DNA of 7,538 bases. Source: Nitrososphaerota archaeon. GTDB lineage: Archaea > Thermoproteota > Bathyarchaeia > Bathyarchaeales > Bathycorpusculaceae. Location of the stretch: NCBI GenBank assembly GCA_031260365.1, contig JAIRJY010000007.1:1-7538 (forward strand), read 5' to 3'. The translations under genes were made by a program, and so were the position numbers. This document shows positions 82-7,477 of this stretch, in pieces (positions within the stretch are counted from its first letter, which is position 1; each line of letters begins with the position of its first letter). Below the pieces are notes generated by a model. It did no database searches. It was not told the origin of the DNA and saw nothing but the letters and a program-made list of their open reading frames with translations.

Positions 82-110
82 GTAGCGGCAGGTATTCTGC
101 TACATTTTTT
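82..110 (+). terminator. possible hairpin-plus-T terminator
   Basis: GTAGC at 82-86 can pair with GCTAC at 99-103, or alternatively GCAG at 88-91 with CTGC at 97-100. The stem is followed by six T at 105-110. On the plus strand this resembles a terminator and would end a transcript entering from the left of the window. Nothing upstream within 1-81 could be identified as a gene. One frame stays open from base 2 to a TAA at 47-49, but the 15 residues are too few to judge. The stem is short, so this is weak. Confidence 0.3.
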
Positions 111-146: not shown

Positions 147-181
147 ATAAAAGACTTATCCTTGAACCCACACTAATTATC

Positions 182-247
182 GTGGATGATGAAACCTAGA
201 GTCACAGAGTTAAAACAGTGATATTGACTCGACGGGCGAACTGACAC
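182..247 (+). ncRNA. candidate box C/D guide RNA (16S C1402 2'-O-methylation)
   Basis: Box C is a perfect ATGATGA (186-192) and box D is CTGA (241-244). GTG at 182-184 can pair with CAC at 245-247 as a short terminal stem. Internally a D'-like CAGA (205-208) lies exactly 12 nt after box C, the usual archaeal guide length. It is followed by a degenerate C' box, either GTGATAT (218-224) or ATATTGA (221-227). The D guide (230-238) is complementary over nine bases to the 16S rRNA encoded at 6110-6118. The base five before box D (G236) pairs with the C encoded at 6116, equivalent to E. coli C1402. In archaea such RNAs bind L7Ae, Nop5 and fibrillarin, which methylates the target ribose. The boxes, the spacing and a guide match to the organism's own rRNA support the call. 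Weak points are the non-canonical D' and C' boxes and undefined ends. No protein frame crosses it. Confidence 0.75.
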
Positions 248-300
248 ACAAAAATAGACAACATCACATATTTTCACACATTTAGAAACAGCGACACACC

Positions 301-353: not shown

Positions 354-1655
354 TTATAGAGGCAGATCTTTTTCTTTGAAAATCTTCACAGCTAATACAT
401 AAAGCACTACACCTATAATGACAAGAACCAAGAACTGAATCCCAAAGCTGCCACCTGACACAATAGCATTTGGATCATATAGAGTGTTCATTGAAAAATA
501 TTTAAGAAAATCCAAACCTTCGCCAAATCCACTCATCATTTGGAACAAATAAAAAGCAACAGGTATGCCTGCACCAAGTGCTAGAGAATTATTTGCTGAA
601 TTAAAGACACAAGAACAAAAGAAAGCAATTCCACTTGTAGCAAAAATTAAAAGAACAGCCCCAAGATTCAACGTAATGTACTCTTGGACGCTAAAATTCA
701 AACCCTCATCAAGCATAAACTGTTTTGAAACAAGCTGAGCATTAATAACTCCAACAAAAGCTGCTTTCTGCATTTCAAGTGCCACTACTTCATTTGGTGC
801 CGATGCCAAAACTTCTTCAGGCACCAAATCGGCAGCTATAGCCGCTGCAGCCAAAGCAGGTTCACTATTTTTTATTCTCGCCAAATTAGACGTTAATCCA
901 GTAACACTCATATCAAGCACATCCGCAGCTGCCGTAATACCCGCTAGAACCTTTTGCTGAAATTCAGCCATTTCCCCAGGTGTCATCGTATTTTGACTTG
1001 TGTTACCAGTATCGCCGCCAATTTTTTGCTGAAGATATAATCTATAAACGTCTTCATCAATTTTCCTAGCTTCAGCACCTCTCGTAACAGCTTCAGAATT
1101 CTCAAGAATCATAGTCAAGTTACCAGCTACTGTAGCCTTATCCCACCCAAACTCTTTTGACACATCTTTAACATCCGCGGTATACGCATTACCAAAAACG
1201 TTTCCTTGAGTTACTTGAATTGTTGCAATCCCTACAAGGCTAACAACGAGAAACATGCATAAAACGGCAGTGATCAAATAAGTACCCTTCGTTGCCGCAA
1301 CTGTCCGTCTCTTAATAGGTGTTGACAACGTATACGCCATCGAACCATTATCCACCTGTGCAGCAATCATACCATTTGCCGTAAGAACCACATAAATGAC
1401 CGGCAACACAACAGCAAGCATACCATAAAAAGTGCCAGAAAGCATAGTATTTAACGTAATAGTACCAAGACCACTAATCGCGTCTCCGATTACATCGCCA
1501 AACGCGCTCATAATTGTGTCTACCAAACTATTAATTTTAATAGGATCAAAACGTGAAATAATTAAAACCGACATCGCACATAACGTTGCCGTAAAAATCA
1601 GCCACAATTTATAATTTGATTTGAAGGTTTGTTTAAAGATTGTTTTATTGAACAT
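354..1655 (-). CDS. ABC-2-type transporter permease
   Basis: A 433-residue integral membrane protein, the channel-forming partner of the two ATPases encoded just upstream. Hydrophobic segments are visible near residues 17-33, 72-93, 125-147, 328-350, 357-373 and 404-424, giving about six membrane spans. The cytoplasmic loop L-S-T-P-I-K-R-R (110-117) matches the LSTPxxRR motif of BcrB/NatB-like ABC-2 permeases. Between spans 3 and 4 lies a large soluble insert (about 150-325) with Ala-rich helices, likely outside the cell. The start at 1655 is preferred over an in-frame ATG at 1697. It has AGGAG ten bases upstream, and the protein then begins with the Lys-rich segment typical of the family. 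The gene overlaps the end of the preceding ATPase by 11 nt. It is the only permease in the operon, so it probably works as a homodimer. The substrate is unknown; drug or antimicrobial peptide export is the usual guess for this family beside MarR. Confidence 0.85.
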   Translation of the reverse strand: MFNKTIFKQTFKSNYKLWLIFTATLCAMSVLIISRFDPIKINSLVDTIMSAFGDVIGDAISGLGTITLNTMLSGTFYGMLAVVLPVIYVVLTANGMIAAQVDNGSMAYTLSTPIKRRTVAATKGTYLITAVLCMFLVVSLVGIATIQVTQGNVFGNAYTADVKDVSKEFGWDKATVAGNLTMILENSEAVTRGAEARKIDEDVYRLYLQQKIGGDTGNTSQNTMTPGEMAEFQQKVLAGITAAADVLDMSVTGLTSNLARIKNSEPALAAAAIAADLVPEEVLASAPNEVVALEMQKAAFVGVINAQLVSKQFMLDEGLNFSVQEYITLNLGAVLLIFATSGIAFFCSCVFNSANNSLALGAGIPVAFYLFQMMSGFGEGLDFLKYFSMNTLYDPNAIVSGGSFGIQFLVLVIIGVVLYVLAVKIFKEKDLPL

Positions 1656-2550
1656 TGTTTTGTCTCTCCTTATATATACCATTAAAATATTTTTCAAGAG
1701 TGTACTTGATTTCAGATATGAACTTTATTTTATATCCTTTCAAAACGCCTAGAAAAGCGTTAACATCATTATCAGAAACATTGACAATCACTTGATTTTT
1801 TTCTGCCTGTTTTTCCTCAAAACTAAAATCCAAAGAGGTAAACCGTTTGTAATCAGACTTTGAGAGAAACTCTATTTTATATGACTTATTTTCGTTATGT
1901 CTTATCTCTTTTGTAGATTTAACGGCAAGAATTTTTCCGTCCTTAATGAGCGCGACTTTATCGCATGTATCCTCAACTTCATCAAACAAATGTGTAGACA
2001 TAAAAATTGTTTTACCTTTTTTCTTTTCATCATTTAAAATATCTATGAATCTAACACGCATCAGCGGATCAAGCCCAGTTGTAGGTTCATCAAGAATCAG
2101 AATTTCGCGATCTCCCATAAGCGCAGCGACAATAGCAGTTTTTTGTTTCATACCTTTTGACATGCGATTTAATTTTGCAGTTGGATCAAGCTGAAGCTTC
2201 TTAACAACATATTTTGCATAAGACAAGTCTTTAACTCCAAGCAACTCTGCCTGACCTTTAAAAAAGTCAACGCCAGTAGGTACTTCAGGGAAAGCGATTT
2301 CTCCCGGTACATACCCAATAATTTTTTTTAGTTCAGCTGAATCATTCCAACAGTCAAGCCCATTTATAGTAGCACTACCAGTATCAGGTTTCAAAAAACC
2401 CATCAAATGACGTATTGTAGTGGTTTTTCCAGCACCATTTGTGCCAACAAACCCAAATACCTCACTTTTTCCGATTTCTAAATTGACATCAAAAATACCG
2501 CGTCCATCACCGTAATTTTTTGTCAACATTTTTAGTTCAATTAACGGCAT
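1645..2550 (-). CDS. ABC transporter ATP-binding protein (BcrA-like), second copy
   Basis: A 301-residue nucleotide-binding subunit expected to power the neighbouring permease from the cytoplasmic face. Walker A is GTNGAGKTT (36-44), the signature is M-S-K-G-M-K-Q (130-136), Walker B is LILDEP (151-156) and the switch histidine is H187 (STH). The usual Q-loop IGYLPQ reads IGYVPGE (78-84), so the glutamine is replaced. After about residue 210 comes a roughly 90-residue C-terminal extension ending in SEIKYTLEKYF, also found in the first ATPase. The start at 2550 has GGAGGT (2561-2566) ten bases upstream and overlaps the preceding gene by 14 nt in another frame. It is a clear paralogue of the first copy (29 of the first 50 residues identical, no gaps across the motifs). 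A heterodimeric ATPase pair is a reasonable inference. The substrate is unknown. Confidence 0.92.
   Translation of the reverse strand: MPLIELKMLTKNYGDGRGIFDVNLEIGKSEVFGFVGTNGAGKTTTIRHLMGFLKPDTGSATINGLDCWNDSAELKKIIGYVPGEIAFPEVPTGVDFFKGQAELLGVKDLSYAKYVVKKLQLDPTAKLNRMSKGMKQKTAIVAALMGDREILILDEPTTGLDPLMRVRFIDILNDEKKKGKTIFMSTHLFDEVEDTCDKVALIKDGKILAVKSTKEIRHNENKSYKIEFLSKSDYKRFTSLDFSFEEKQAEKNQVIVNVSDNDVNAFLGVLKGYKIKFISEIKYTLEKYFNGIYKERQNNVQ
1666..1670 (-). promoter_or_regulatory. Shine-Dalgarno site that sets the permease start
   Basis: AGGAG on the minus strand lies ten bases before the ATG at 1655, within the 3' end of the preceding ATPase gene. It matches the CCUCC of the 16S 3' end in this window. 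No comparable site suits the in-frame ATG at 1697, which would also lengthen the overlap with the ATPase. Confidence 0.7.
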
Positions 2551-3505
2551 TTACAATCTTACCTCCGTCCATAGCAGCATTTGTTTTTCTATTTTTGTCA
2601 TAAAAACTCATGAAGTAATCTTCAAGAGTGAATTTAATTTCCGAAAAAAACTTTAAACTATAACCTGAGATCAGGTCTATAAACTCGTTGACATCCATAT
2701 CATCGATGTGAATATTTACCTGATTTCTTTGCTCTTTTACCGACGCAATTTTATAAGGTAGATGAGCATTTTCGAATTTTGAATGATTTTTTTTGAATCT
2801 TTCAAACTCGTCTTTAGAACGGAACTCTATCTTAAAGGTCTTGATTTTGGTATTGCGTAAATCGTCTGCAACAAAAGTTGAAACAAGTTTCCCGTCCTTT
2901 ATAATGGAAATTTTATCGCAAGTAGCATCCACTTCAGAAAATATATGAGATGACAAAAGGATTGTTTTACCACGTTTCTTTTCAGTTCTAACAAATTCGA
3001 TAAAGATATCCTGCATAACTGGATCAAGCCCACTAGTAGGTTCATCAAGGACAAGTACAGCAGGGTCATGCATAAAAGCGGTCACTATAGCGAGTTTTCG
3101 CTTCATACCAAGTGACATCCGCTTTAATTCACCAGACGGCTCCAACTCGAAACGTTTGATTAGCTCTTTAGTGTATGTCATATCTGTCATTTTGCGCAAA
3201 TCTGCCATCATTTTTATAAACTGTGTACCAGTGAGAGAGTCTGGAAGAGCAATTTCACCGGGTAGATACCCAAGATTTTTTTGTATCTCGTAATAATTTT
3301 TCCAACTGTCCAAACCATTCACAATGGTACGTCCTGCATGTGGGCGAGAAAACCCCATGATGTGACGAATAGCAGTAGTTTTTCCAGCACCATTCGGACC
3401 TAAAAATCCATATACTTCGCCTTTTTCAACATTAAAAGAAACATTAAAAACGCCACGTCCGTGTCCAAAATCCTTTGTTAAGTTTTCAACCTGTATAACT
3501 GGCAT
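2537..3505 (-). CDS. ABC transporter ATP-binding protein (BcrA-like), first copy
   Basis: A 322-residue ABC ATPase, second gene of the operon. Walker A is GPNGAGKTT (36-44), the signature is M-S-L-G-M-K-R (130-136), Walker B is LVLDEP (151-156), the D-loop is SGLDP and the switch histidine is H187 (SSH). The Q-loop region is LGYLPGEIALPD, with Gly-Glu where Gln is normal. The C-terminal domain (about 210-300) resembles that of the second copy and ends in SEIKFTLEDYF. A further polar tail of about 20 residues spans the translational overlap with the next gene. The ATG at 3505 lies two bases after the repressor stop codon and has GGGGAG (3511-3516) before it. The family exports peptides, drugs or ions with a separate ABC-2 permease; here that is the last gene of the operon. 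Confidence 0.92.
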   Translation of the reverse strand: MPVIQVENLTKDFGHGRGVFNVSFNVEKGEVYGFLGPNGAGKTTAIRHIMGFSRPHAGRTIVNGLDSWKNYYEIQKNLGYLPGEIALPDSLTGTQFIKMMADLRKMTDMTYTKELIKRFELEPSGELKRMSLGMKRKLAIVTAFMHDPAVLVLDEPTSGLDPVMQDIFIEFVRTEKKRGKTILLSSHIFSEVDATCDKISIIKDGKLVSTFVADDLRNTKIKTFKIEFRSKDEFERFKKNHSKFENAHLPYKIASVKEQRNQVNIHIDDMDVNEFIDLISGYSLKFFSEIKFTLEDYFMSFYDKNRKTNAAMDGGKIVNAVN

Positions 3506-3507
3506 GC

Positions 3508-4005
3508 TTACTCCCCTATTTGATTTGTTTTAAAATATTTATTCTTCATTTTTTCTATGACTTTTTCGTTCACTTTTTCTAAGTTATTGATAATCTCGAA
3601 TAAATGAGTTAGGTATTCTTCGCCTACAGAGTTAATATACTCTGTTAGGTAATCATCAACAATACTATCAAGAAGTTCAATGGCTTTACAACCCTTCTCT
3701 GTTACGGTAACGACAAGTTTACGACGGTCGTTTTTATCTAGATTTCTCACAAGATATCCTTTTTCCTCGAGAGTGCCAAGCATTTTGGAAACCCCTGACT
3801 TTGAAAGGCAGTTGTTATTTTTAAAATCTAGCAAACTGAAAGTATTCTCAGAAGCAGTTTTTGCGACATTGTGTAACAAAAAGAACTCAGACAGGTTAAT
3901 GTTTAGCCCTACAGGATATATGTTATCCATTTCAGCTATTGCAAGTATACTATGTCGCTTAATTTTTAAGGCTAGCTGTACAAACTGTTCTTTTATTTGA
4001 TTCAT
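3508..4005 (-). CDS. MarR-family transcriptional repressor
   Basis: A 165-residue winged-helix regulator, first gene of the operon. The N-terminal helix (1-30) and C-terminal helices (about 108-155) would form the dimer interface. The DNA-recognition helix is around L-S-K-S-G-V-S-K-M-L-G-T-L (67-79). The wing D-K-N-D-R-R-K-L-V-V-T-V-T (90-102) keeps the conserved Asp and Arg of MarR proteins. MarR dimers bind palindromes in their own promoters and release them on binding small ligands. A 23-bp palindrome lies 26 nt upstream of this start, so autoregulation together with the transporter genes is likely. The start codon has only a modest site, GGTGG about a dozen bases upstream, so the translation start is slightly less certain than for the other genes. 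The ligand cannot be predicted. Confidence 0.88.
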   Translation of the reverse strand: MNQIKEQFVQLALKIKRHSILAIAEMDNIYPVGLNINLSEFFLLHNVAKTASENTFSLLDFKNNNCLSKSGVSKMLGTLEEKGYLVRNLDKNDRRKLVVTVTEKGCKAIELLDSIVDDYLTEYINSVGEEYLTHLFEIINNLEKVNEKVIEKMKNKYFKTNQIGE

Positions 4006-4330: not shown

Positions 4331-4336
4331 GAGGTG
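4331..4336 (+). promoter_or_regulatory. Shine-Dalgarno site that sets the eL22 start
   Basis: GAGGTG lies six bases before the ATG at 4343 and pairs well with the 16S 3' end. An in-frame GTG at 4334 sits inside this element and is better read as part of the ribosome binding site than as the start codon. A third in-frame ATG at 4352 is less well spaced. Confidence 0.7.
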
Positions 4337-4342
4337 AATCAA

Positions 4343-4630
4343 ATGGTTGAAATGAAAATTGATGCTAACGAAATAAAAAGCAAAAGCGGCATGGTTCAAA
4401 AATATGCTGAATTCATTAAAGAGAAAACAAGTGCAGACGTATCAAATGAGGGTAACACTATTACAGTAAAAGGTGAAGGACCAGCAGTAGCTAAAAAATA
4501 TTTACGTGTTTTAACTAAAAAGTTCTTACACAAATACGAGTTAATTGACACCTACCGCGTAATCGCCGATGAAGGCGAAAACACATTGCAAATAATAGAA
4601 CGTAAAACATACGAAGAAGAAGAAGACTAA
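4343..4630 (+). CDS. rpl22e: large-subunit ribosomal protein eL22 (L22e)
   Basis: A 95-residue basic protein with a strongly acidic tail. It matches the eukaryotic L22e family in the best conserved block: KKYLRVLTKKFLHKYELID followed by TYRVIAD (about residues 51-76). This aligns with the [25 protein letters not shown] block of animal L22 as I recall it. It is preceded by the β-strand ITVKGEG and ends in E-E-E-E-D, like the acidic tail of eukaryotic L22. At 95 residues it is shorter than the roughly 125-130 residues of eukaryotes, lacking their N-terminal extension. In eukaryotes the protein sits on the surface of the 60S subunit and binds 28S rRNA. The gene stands alone, divergent from the MarR operon and convergent with the phosphatase gene, not in a ribosomal protein cluster. 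The family call is firm; its role in this archaeal ribosome is inferred. Confidence 0.85.
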   Translation: MVEMKIDANEIKSKSGMVQKYAEFIKEKTSADVSNEGNTITVKGEGPAVAKKYLRVLTKKFLHKYELIDTYRVIADEGENTLQIIERKTYEEEED

Positions 4631-4711: not shown

Positions 4712-5701
4712 TTACAGTTCGTTTATAAATTGTTTGTAAACCGGGTGATTTTTAAATCGTATAGTTGTTTCTGTTTTCTCTATAGTACCACTTGGCATAC
4801 GCATAGAAATAGAGCTTACCGTTGCACCATCCCTGTTTAAACGCACACCATCAAGAAGCTCACCTTTAGTTACACCTGAAGCAACAAAAACTAACTCATT
4901 ACCCTTAGCCAACTCATCCTCACGATAAGTTTTATCTACATCTACACCAGCCTGCTTCAAACGCTCCACACGAGCGACATCAAGCATTGGATTCCAAACT
5001 CTAACAAGCATCACACCACCCAAACACTTCACCGCCGCCGCCGCAATAGTAGCTTCAGGACCCGCACCAGCACCAATAAGCAAGTCAAAACCAGAGTTTG
5101 GCGTAGCCGCAACAATCGCACCTATAATATCACCATCAGGTATAAGAATAATTTTCACACCCAACATCCGCAGAACCTTTAAAATATCATTATGCCTATC
5201 ACGATCCAACAGTATAACAGTAAACTTTTCCAAAGAAACATTTTTTGCCGCCGCAATAGTGCGCACAATCTCTTCAATACTCATATCCAAAGACAGTTTA
5301 CCATTGCTATGATAGTCAGTAGCAACTTTAAAGTAATAACCATCATCAGGTAAAACCTGAAAACATCCACGTGGAGCACATGCAATAGTAGATATAGAAT
5401 CTTTTCTACCTTTGCTAGCTGCAGTAGTACCATCAACAGGGTCAACAACAAAATCTAACGCTGGACCATAGCCAGTACCAACTTTTTCTCGTCGCTCAAA
5501 CGCCGGAGCATTATCTTTTGGTCCCTCACAACAAATAACTGCACCATCAATATCCATCTGATTTAAAACAGTCCGTGAAAACTCCACAGCCTTTGCATCA
5601 ATTAAATCACAATCACCATGACCAACATGCAACACTCCACCTATAGCTCCTGCAACAGTAACTCTAGTTAAAGAGGGTGCTAAAGCTCTTAACGAAACCA
5701 T
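4712..5701 (-). CDS. glpX: class II fructose-1,6-bisphosphatase (GlpX family)
   Basis: A 329-residue cytoplasmic enzyme expected to hydrolyse fructose 1,6-bisphosphate to fructose 6-phosphate in gluconeogenesis. It aligns with E. coli GlpX (336 residues) along its length: V-L-N-Q-M-D-I-D-G (45-53), C-E-G-P-K-D-N-A-P (58-66), EKVGTGYG (72-79), VVDPVDGT (85-92), IPDGD (187-191), GAGPEA (212-217) and ASGVTKGELLDGV (274-286). Equivalents of the metal and catalytic residues are present: D35, E59, D87, T92 and E216. E. coli Glu88 is Asp90 here, so the motif is DPVDGT instead of DPIEGT. The start at 5701 has GGAGA (5709-5713) seven bases upstream, and no earlier in-frame ATG is visible. The gene stands alone behind the 16S gene in the same direction, with its own promoter-like box. 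Activity on sedoheptulose bisphosphate, as in cyanobacterial relatives, cannot be excluded. Confidence 0.9.
   Translation of the reverse strand: MVSLRALAPSLTRVTVAGAIGGVLHVGHGDCDLIDAKAVEFSRTVLNQMDIDGAVICCEGPKDNAPAFERREKVGTGYGPALDFVVDPVDGTTAASKGRKDSISTIACAPRGCFQVLPDDGYYFKVATDYHSNGKLSLDMSIEEIVRTIAAAKNVSLEKFTVILLDRDRHNDILKVLRMLGVKIILIPDGDIIGAIVAATPNSGFDLLIGAGAGPEATIAAAAVKCLGGVMLVRVWNPMLDVARVERLKQAGVDVDKTYREDELAKGNELVFVASGVTKGELLDGVRLNRDGATVSSISMRMPSGTIEKTETTIRFKNHPVYKQFINEL

Positions 5702-5986: not shown

Positions 5987-7470
<1,484 letters not shown>

Positions 7471-7477
<7 letters not shown>

Follow-up and report, generated by a model that had tools for sequence, protein, structure and literature searches.

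A conserved archaeal sequence, likely a box C/D guide RNA gene, predicted to direct 2′-O-methylation of 16S rRNA at the C1402 equivalent

We investigated whether a short stretch of DNA on the same contig as a 16S rRNA gene encodes a guide RNA for that 16S rRNA. The window, i.e., the whole stretch of DNA that was analyzed, is a contig of 7,538 bases (G000:C55) from an archaeal assembly that is 60% complete, and its 16S rRNA gene lies on the minus strand at 5987..7476 (Rfam SSU_rRNA_archaea, 1492 bits, full length). The nine bases CGACGGGCG at 230-238 are identical to the plus strand at 6110-6118 and can thus pair with the 16S RNA, whose gene runs on the minus strand; the complementarity claimed in the preliminary description of this DNA was borne out by this identity. 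They form the longest unbroken 16S match within the 18 nt preceding box D (CTGA, 241..244, plus strand), and read as a D guide (230..238, plus strand) complementary to 16S 1400-1408 in E. coli numbering, with the target at 6110..6118 on the minus strand, in the decoding centre. The two bases next to box D (D+1 and D+2, AA) are unpaired, so that the duplex extends from D+3 to D+11 (9 bp). The fifth base upstream of box D (D+5, position 236, plus strand) faces window position 6116, which is 16S nucleotide 1361, the first C of CCCGUC. From the CCGCCCGUC motif we take this nucleotide to be the equivalent of E. coli C1402. The D+5 rule (PMC11542601) makes it (6116, minus strand) the predicted 2′-O-methylation site, and the box-D-plus-five register, which the preliminary description had pointed at the same residue, agrees with the alignment of 236 and 1361. 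The sequence at 183-246 is conserved and very probably a box C/D guide RNA gene, predicted to direct 2′-O-methylation of 16S C1402; of the readings considered, a guide RNA gene of an already known kind is much the strongest, and both its expression and the methylation are predictions.

Box C (ATGATGA, 186..192, plus strand) contains ATGATG, which is invariant in an alignment of 41 rows, themselves retrieved by means of a box C pattern, and boxes C (RUGAUGA) and D (CUGA) are separated by the ~40-60 nt expected of an archaeal box C/D sRNA. Degenerate internal boxes can be assigned provisionally as D′ (CAGA, 205..208, plus strand; AGAGC conserved in the alignment) and C′ (GTGATAT, 218..224, plus strand; TGA conserved in the alignment). 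The internal C′/D′ region, with its conserved GA/UGA core and closing GC pairs that covary, might form a k-turn or k-loop. The likely extent of the sRNA gene, 183..246 on the plus strand with approximate ends, comes from a match over positions 1-64 of a covariance model (R1, E = 2.4e-16) that was itself built partly from the window sequence, one of its rows. An Rfam search of the window RNA returned no family at gathering score and no family named sR12; the closest models, sR2 and sR5, align over 182-246 with scores far below their cut-offs. Elsewhere in the same assembly, a weak sR2-like match below the cut-off (G000:C34:630-687, L180) is a possible other C/D sRNA, and it may be noise, the search behind it having also matched 12/14 controls, mostly bacteria.

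The remainder of the window has several protein-coding features. A 98-aa protein at 4334-4630 (plus strand) matches the L22e family (PF01776, 33.1 bits, cut-off 23.6); to our knowledge, eukaryotic ribosomal protein L22e is not usually listed for archaea. On the minus strand, 354-4005 encodes a MarR-like regulator (HTH_27 winged-helix over its cut-off, MarR models just below theirs), two ABC ATPases and an ABC-2 permease-like protein, and 4712-5701 encodes a bacterial-type GlpX fructose-1,6-bisphosphatase (PF03320).

A promoter-like BRE/TATA motif, ATAAAAGACTTAT, lies at 147..159 (plus strand), ~29 nt before box C. In 30/41 copies, the window included, the tetranucleotide CTTA lies within −33 to −26 relative to box C (1.6 expected from shuffles), and an A-rich element often precedes it. 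The usual archaeal distance from TATA to start places the start just before box C, where the putative promoter would begin transcription. Farther upstream, at 82-110 (plus strand), we also observed a terminator-like 7-bp hairpin followed by a T run (z = −2.05).

The machinery that such an RNA would need is encoded in the same genome, where a contig (G000:C160) carries Nop5 (PF01798, E = 1e-70) and, after it, a fibrillarin gene truncated where the contig stops, and fibrillarin is found in 39/41 genomes. The genome search suggested in the preliminary description thus recovered both proteins, fibrillarin as a fragment. The accompanying search for RsmI (TIGR00096) gave no match over the cut-off in 41 genomes, including the window's own 60% complete assembly, while 10/14 controls matched; a single match in G048 was below the cut-off, and an RsmI protein route to Cm1402 was rejected. 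In the mechanism that we propose, Nop5 and fibrillarin would be recruited to C/D and C′/D′ kink-turns that L7Ae would fold, and pairing of the guide with 16S 1400-1408 would bring the ribose opposite D+5 to fibrillarin for 2′-O-methylation of C1402, in the ribosomal P site.

We then considered how far the sequence is conserved within the class, probably Bathyarchaeia. BLAST with window 165-260 returned matches in 39/61 genomes (own included), a set gathered with no requirement on register. Boxes C and D are both kept in these relatives, and ACGGGCG-NN-CTGA is present in 28 of the 29 non-own loci that were read; the 29th (L013) has ACGGGCA, one base changed, in the same register, so the shift of guide against box D that would have told against the preliminary description is absent from this set. 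Model R1, built from 41 sequences, matches 108/256 genomes of the class, 41 of these 108 having contributed a row. In the window's own family it matches 77/90 listed genomes; 4 of the 13 listed genomes with no R1 match are at least 92% complete.

The stretch between boxes C and D appears to contain a helix. Its 5′ arm (GAGTCA, 199..204, plus strand), in the D′ spacer, can pair with a 3′ arm (TGACTC, 225..230, plus strand) located directly 5′ of the guide and overlapping it at base 230, which has two alternative partners, 199 and 16S G1408. In the 41-row MAFFT alignment, 94.3% of the cells in the helix columns are paired and 12 are doubly changed, with 0/500 shuffles as high by either measure, although the helix was first spotted in the same 41 sequences and relatedness can inflate such counts; slid versions of the helix reach at most 57% paired. 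The arms also covary in a second set of 51 distinct same-order sequences, outside the model alignment but found with a model containing the helix: 272/305 cells pair (263 in shuffles, 0/1000 as high) and eight are doubly changed (0/1000 as high). With pairing of the guide and boxes disallowed, the stretch 5′ of the guide still paired upstream with a mean probability ≥0.5 in 38/42 and 53/63 sequences. Further pair types in the 41-row alignment were not above shuffles (170/500 as high), and it is the other column-wise counts that carry the helix reading. When the longest helix was compared with that of shuffles under loose rules, the difference was weak (5.8 vs. 4.9 bp), and the fold of the window RNA was no more stable than that of shuffles (z = 0.02).

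These results bear on whether the RNA has one guide or two. Because its D′ half is able to pair with the stretch immediately 5′ of the guide, it would be a single-guide RNA; judged from sequence, the window RNA is likely such a form, with the helix ending where the 16S duplex starts. In this single-guide version the guide duplex, 8 to 9 bp long, would have its outer end fixed by the internal helix. A double-guide C/D sRNA of the ordinary sort, whose particle would lack the helix and whose D′ spacer would target another site, in 23S rRNA or a tRNA, would account for the D′-like and C′-like boxes, for the D′ guide-like stretch that deep members of the class retain in common, and for the result of RNAalifold, which on the MAFFT alignment gave three pairs only and the helix not among them. 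We nevertheless regard it as unlikely, given the covariation, seen as doubly changed cells in both sets, between the D′ spacer and the strand just 5′ of the guide. The best matches of the D′ spacer to the window's own 16S (7.0 and 6.0 on 14 nt) look unremarkable by judgement rather than by a shuffle test; they speak against the double-guide form as well, and a D′ guide to the own 16S was rejected on the same judgement.

We scored 105 copies (the 41 alignment rows, L013, and 63/65 further copies), all against the window's 16S. Two copies that failed the extraction pattern were left out, L300 (A at D+5) and L306 (CTTA as box D); model-found copies outside the scoring include a partial G1040 match, the second copies in G028 and G967, and the G316 copy, whose core is the same as that of one alignment row. 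G028, G967 and G1012 each gave two matches to the model. D+5 is G, pairing to the window's 16S, in 104/105 copies, and D+6, D+7, D+9 and D+10 are paired in 105/105, a conservation that is partly due to selection because some copies were found via the guide pattern and all were extracted with a pattern that demands the register. D+8 forms a Watson-Crick pair in 101/105 copies and a G-U pair in four, all four with a pairing G at D+2. Pairing is rare at the box D end (D+1 in 16/105 copies, D+2 in 7/105), and D+3 is unpaired in 12/105; in the 12 genomes concerned, the 16S motif was unchanged in eight, had two mismatches in one, and was not found in three.

Two genomes depart from this pattern at the target itself. 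In G049 (L296) and G394 (L300), D+5 is A but the 16S still has C1402, leaving an A-C mismatch at the target. A 16S motif search allowing up to two mismatches found the motif in 20/30 genomes (3/30 with a reversed control); a compensating 16S change was looked for in these two and none was found. Guide and 16S have not changed together in either genome, since both have TTGCACACACCGCCCGTC exactly. The A at D+5 counts against the guide reading in these two genomes, whose guides are candidates for natural loss.

That both genomes lost the D+5 pair and kept the rest, and that the duplex is short (9 bp), would also fit an RNA whose main role is to chaperone or time assembly by preventing early pairing of 1400-1408, and for which methylation is weak or incidental; C/D sRNAs have been discussed as chaperones (PMC7994747). 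Pairing alone, however, needs neither a G at D+5 in nearly all scored copies nor the constant distance to box D seen in the BLAST set, and Cm is reported at the equivalent residue in Pyrococcus abyssi (PMC7005279), so that we consider a mainly chaperoning role improbable, more so than a second guide. Methylation in vitro was high with duplexes of 8-10 bp (Yang 2016 as cited in PMC7089733).

Outside the class, we scanned genomes with the strict pattern TGATGA-gap-GACGGGCG-NN-CTGA (gap 30-60 in the Thermoproteota scan, 26-56 in the others). The pattern was present in 28/398 Thermoproteota, 7/227 Asgard, 38/243 Thermoplasmatota and 3/19 Iainarchaeota genomes, each count including a centre genome picked for having it, and the reversed pattern had 0 matches across the four scans. 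The phylum names are presumed from the named records that supplied the centre genomes (Heimdallarchaeota, Methanomassiliicoccales and Diapherotrites). Judged by eye, L059 (G246, Thermoproteota scan) and L189 (G434, Asgard scan) may be chance occurrences. Matching stretches numbered at least 120; among the 80 listed, 41 are archaeal and 39 bacterial, the latter taken as probable chance by eye, and at least four Heimdallarchaeota records with the pattern (L088, L091, L107, L129) are among the matches listed.

Likeness beyond the guide differs among these copies. When R1 was run on 23 loci from other phyla, three Asgard loci matched (L181, in a Heimdallarchaeota record; L190; and L191; E = 2e-8 to 7e-8). 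We also scored likeness to the Bathyarchaeia copies with the guide and C/D boxes left out, the C′/D′ boxes still contributing, and counted how many of 300 shuffles scored as high: few did for L181 (0), L183 (0), L191 (1), L228 (1) and L188 (3), and the likeness was weak for L193 (20) and L184 (30). By the same measure there was none for L302 (75), L229 (120), L199 (143), L192 (159), L310 (182), L182 (203), L221 (220) and L189 (236), L182 and L192 representing a second Asgard type. Copies from other phyla match sR1, sR2, sR3, sR60 and other families, all below the Rfam cut-off. A D′ stretch, TTCAGCCTTA, adjoins the C1402 guide in the Thermoplasmatota genomes G689, G723, G882 and G853 and also occurs in the deep class members L188 (a Hecatellales record, the same copy as L307), L304, L305 and L308, with L309 and G806 one base off. 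Common descent between phyla is favored because this stretch is common to Thermoplasmatota and deep members of the class.

The preliminary description had put the chance of a nine-base match in the 16S at well under 1%, which was too low. With no demand made on register, a match of nine or more bases anywhere in the 16S arose in 2.2% of 20,000 mononucleotide shuffles of the 13-nt stretch ahead of box D and in 11.7% of 20,000 shuffles of the whole 48-nt insert, so that a single nine-base match is only suggestive. Chance is excluded by comparison with relatives and not by the match itself: accidental complementarity of an unrelated or nontranscribed stretch, for which the shuffles leave room, was rejected as next to impossible in view of the R1 matches across the class, the register retained in the BLAST-found loci, the promoter-like motif upstream, and recurrence in three further phyla where the reversed pattern has no matches.

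The earlier interpretation therefore stands in part. A C/D guide, its D+5 register, the presence of fibrillarin and Nop5 and the lack of RsmI were upheld; the chance estimate and the novelty of an archaeal guide for this residue were not. The internal helix, the promoter motif and the recurrence in other archaeal phyla were not part of it. As to novelty, an archaeal guide for C1402 would not be the first, given the Cm1376 reported in P. abyssi (PMC7005279) and the predicted sR12 (PMC3511168). Cm1376 was reported from cryo-EM and mass spectrometry and is tabulated as the equivalent of E. coli m4Cm1402, yeast Cm1639 and human Cm1703 (PMC7005279); a review table sets P. abyssi Cm1369, a different number, beside Cm1402 (PMC11542601). 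The archaeal sR12 of Pyrococcus and Sulfolobus is a predicted guide for the snR70-equivalent site (Gaspin 2000 as cited in PMC3511168). In the portions available to us, Dennis 2015 gives helix 44 predictions only for the A1408 and G1494 equivalents and names none for C1402 (PMC4644070), and an S. solfataricus study names no Cm1402 (PMC11698992). Among the matches listed from the open-access literature, in the text available, there is no report of a C1402 guide in Bathyarchaeia or Asgard. The kind is already known; what is new is these members and their variant architecture, a covarying helix of the D′ half with the bases before the guide.

The ribose methyl at C1402 is made by proteins in bacteria, is guided by snoRNAs in eukaryotes and is also present in P. 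abyssi. Heimdallarchaeota are regarded as near relatives of eukaryotes, and copies in several archaeal groups, among them Heimdallarchaeota with likeness that extends past the guide, provide sequences for testing orthology of sR12 and SNORD43 against convergence. Hoeppner and Poole could not tell which of the two applies (PMC3511168). It is possible, and we propose it tentatively as a minority expectation, that the archaeal ancestor of eukaryotes already had one lineage of C1402 guides, that the Heimdallarchaeota and Bathyarchaeia copies are orthologous with each other and with snR70 and SNORD43, and that in Bathyarchaeia the second guide became a helical rod clamping the remaining one, a new archaeal single-guide design. 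The internal helix, if real, would show a route from a double-guide to a single-guide RNA.

The window RNA belongs, by D+5 geometry only, to the target class of sR12, snR70 and SNORD43 (the C1402 equivalent). The Thermoplasmatota guides from the scans (e.g., L184, L199, L221) share GACGGGCG-NN-CTGA with the window and, by eye, boxes C, D′, C′ and D; in contrast to the window RNA, they span ~46-50 nt from box C to box D, are apparently compact double-guide RNAs and have no extended internal helix. The eukaryotic snR70, SNORD43 and AtU43 have an equivalent target (18S Cm1639, Cm1703 and Cm1645, respectively) and are likened by target only to the window RNA, from which they differ in being longer and often intron-encoded. 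The 18S numbering of this residue varies slightly among the sources (PMC11542601, PMC3511168, PMC7005279), and snR70 is one of two yeast snoRNAs with consensus C′/D′ boxes (PMC8413462). Like the window RNA, sR12 is a box C/D sRNA and a predicted guide for the same residue (PMC3511168), the two being likened by the published description of the target only, a description in which the internal helix does not figure. Bacterial RsmI methylates the same C1402 ribose (PMC5053481); RsmI and RsmH (m4Cm1402) thus act on the nucleotide to which the window RNA is predicted to guide fibrillarin, but they do so as protein enzymes with no guide RNA.
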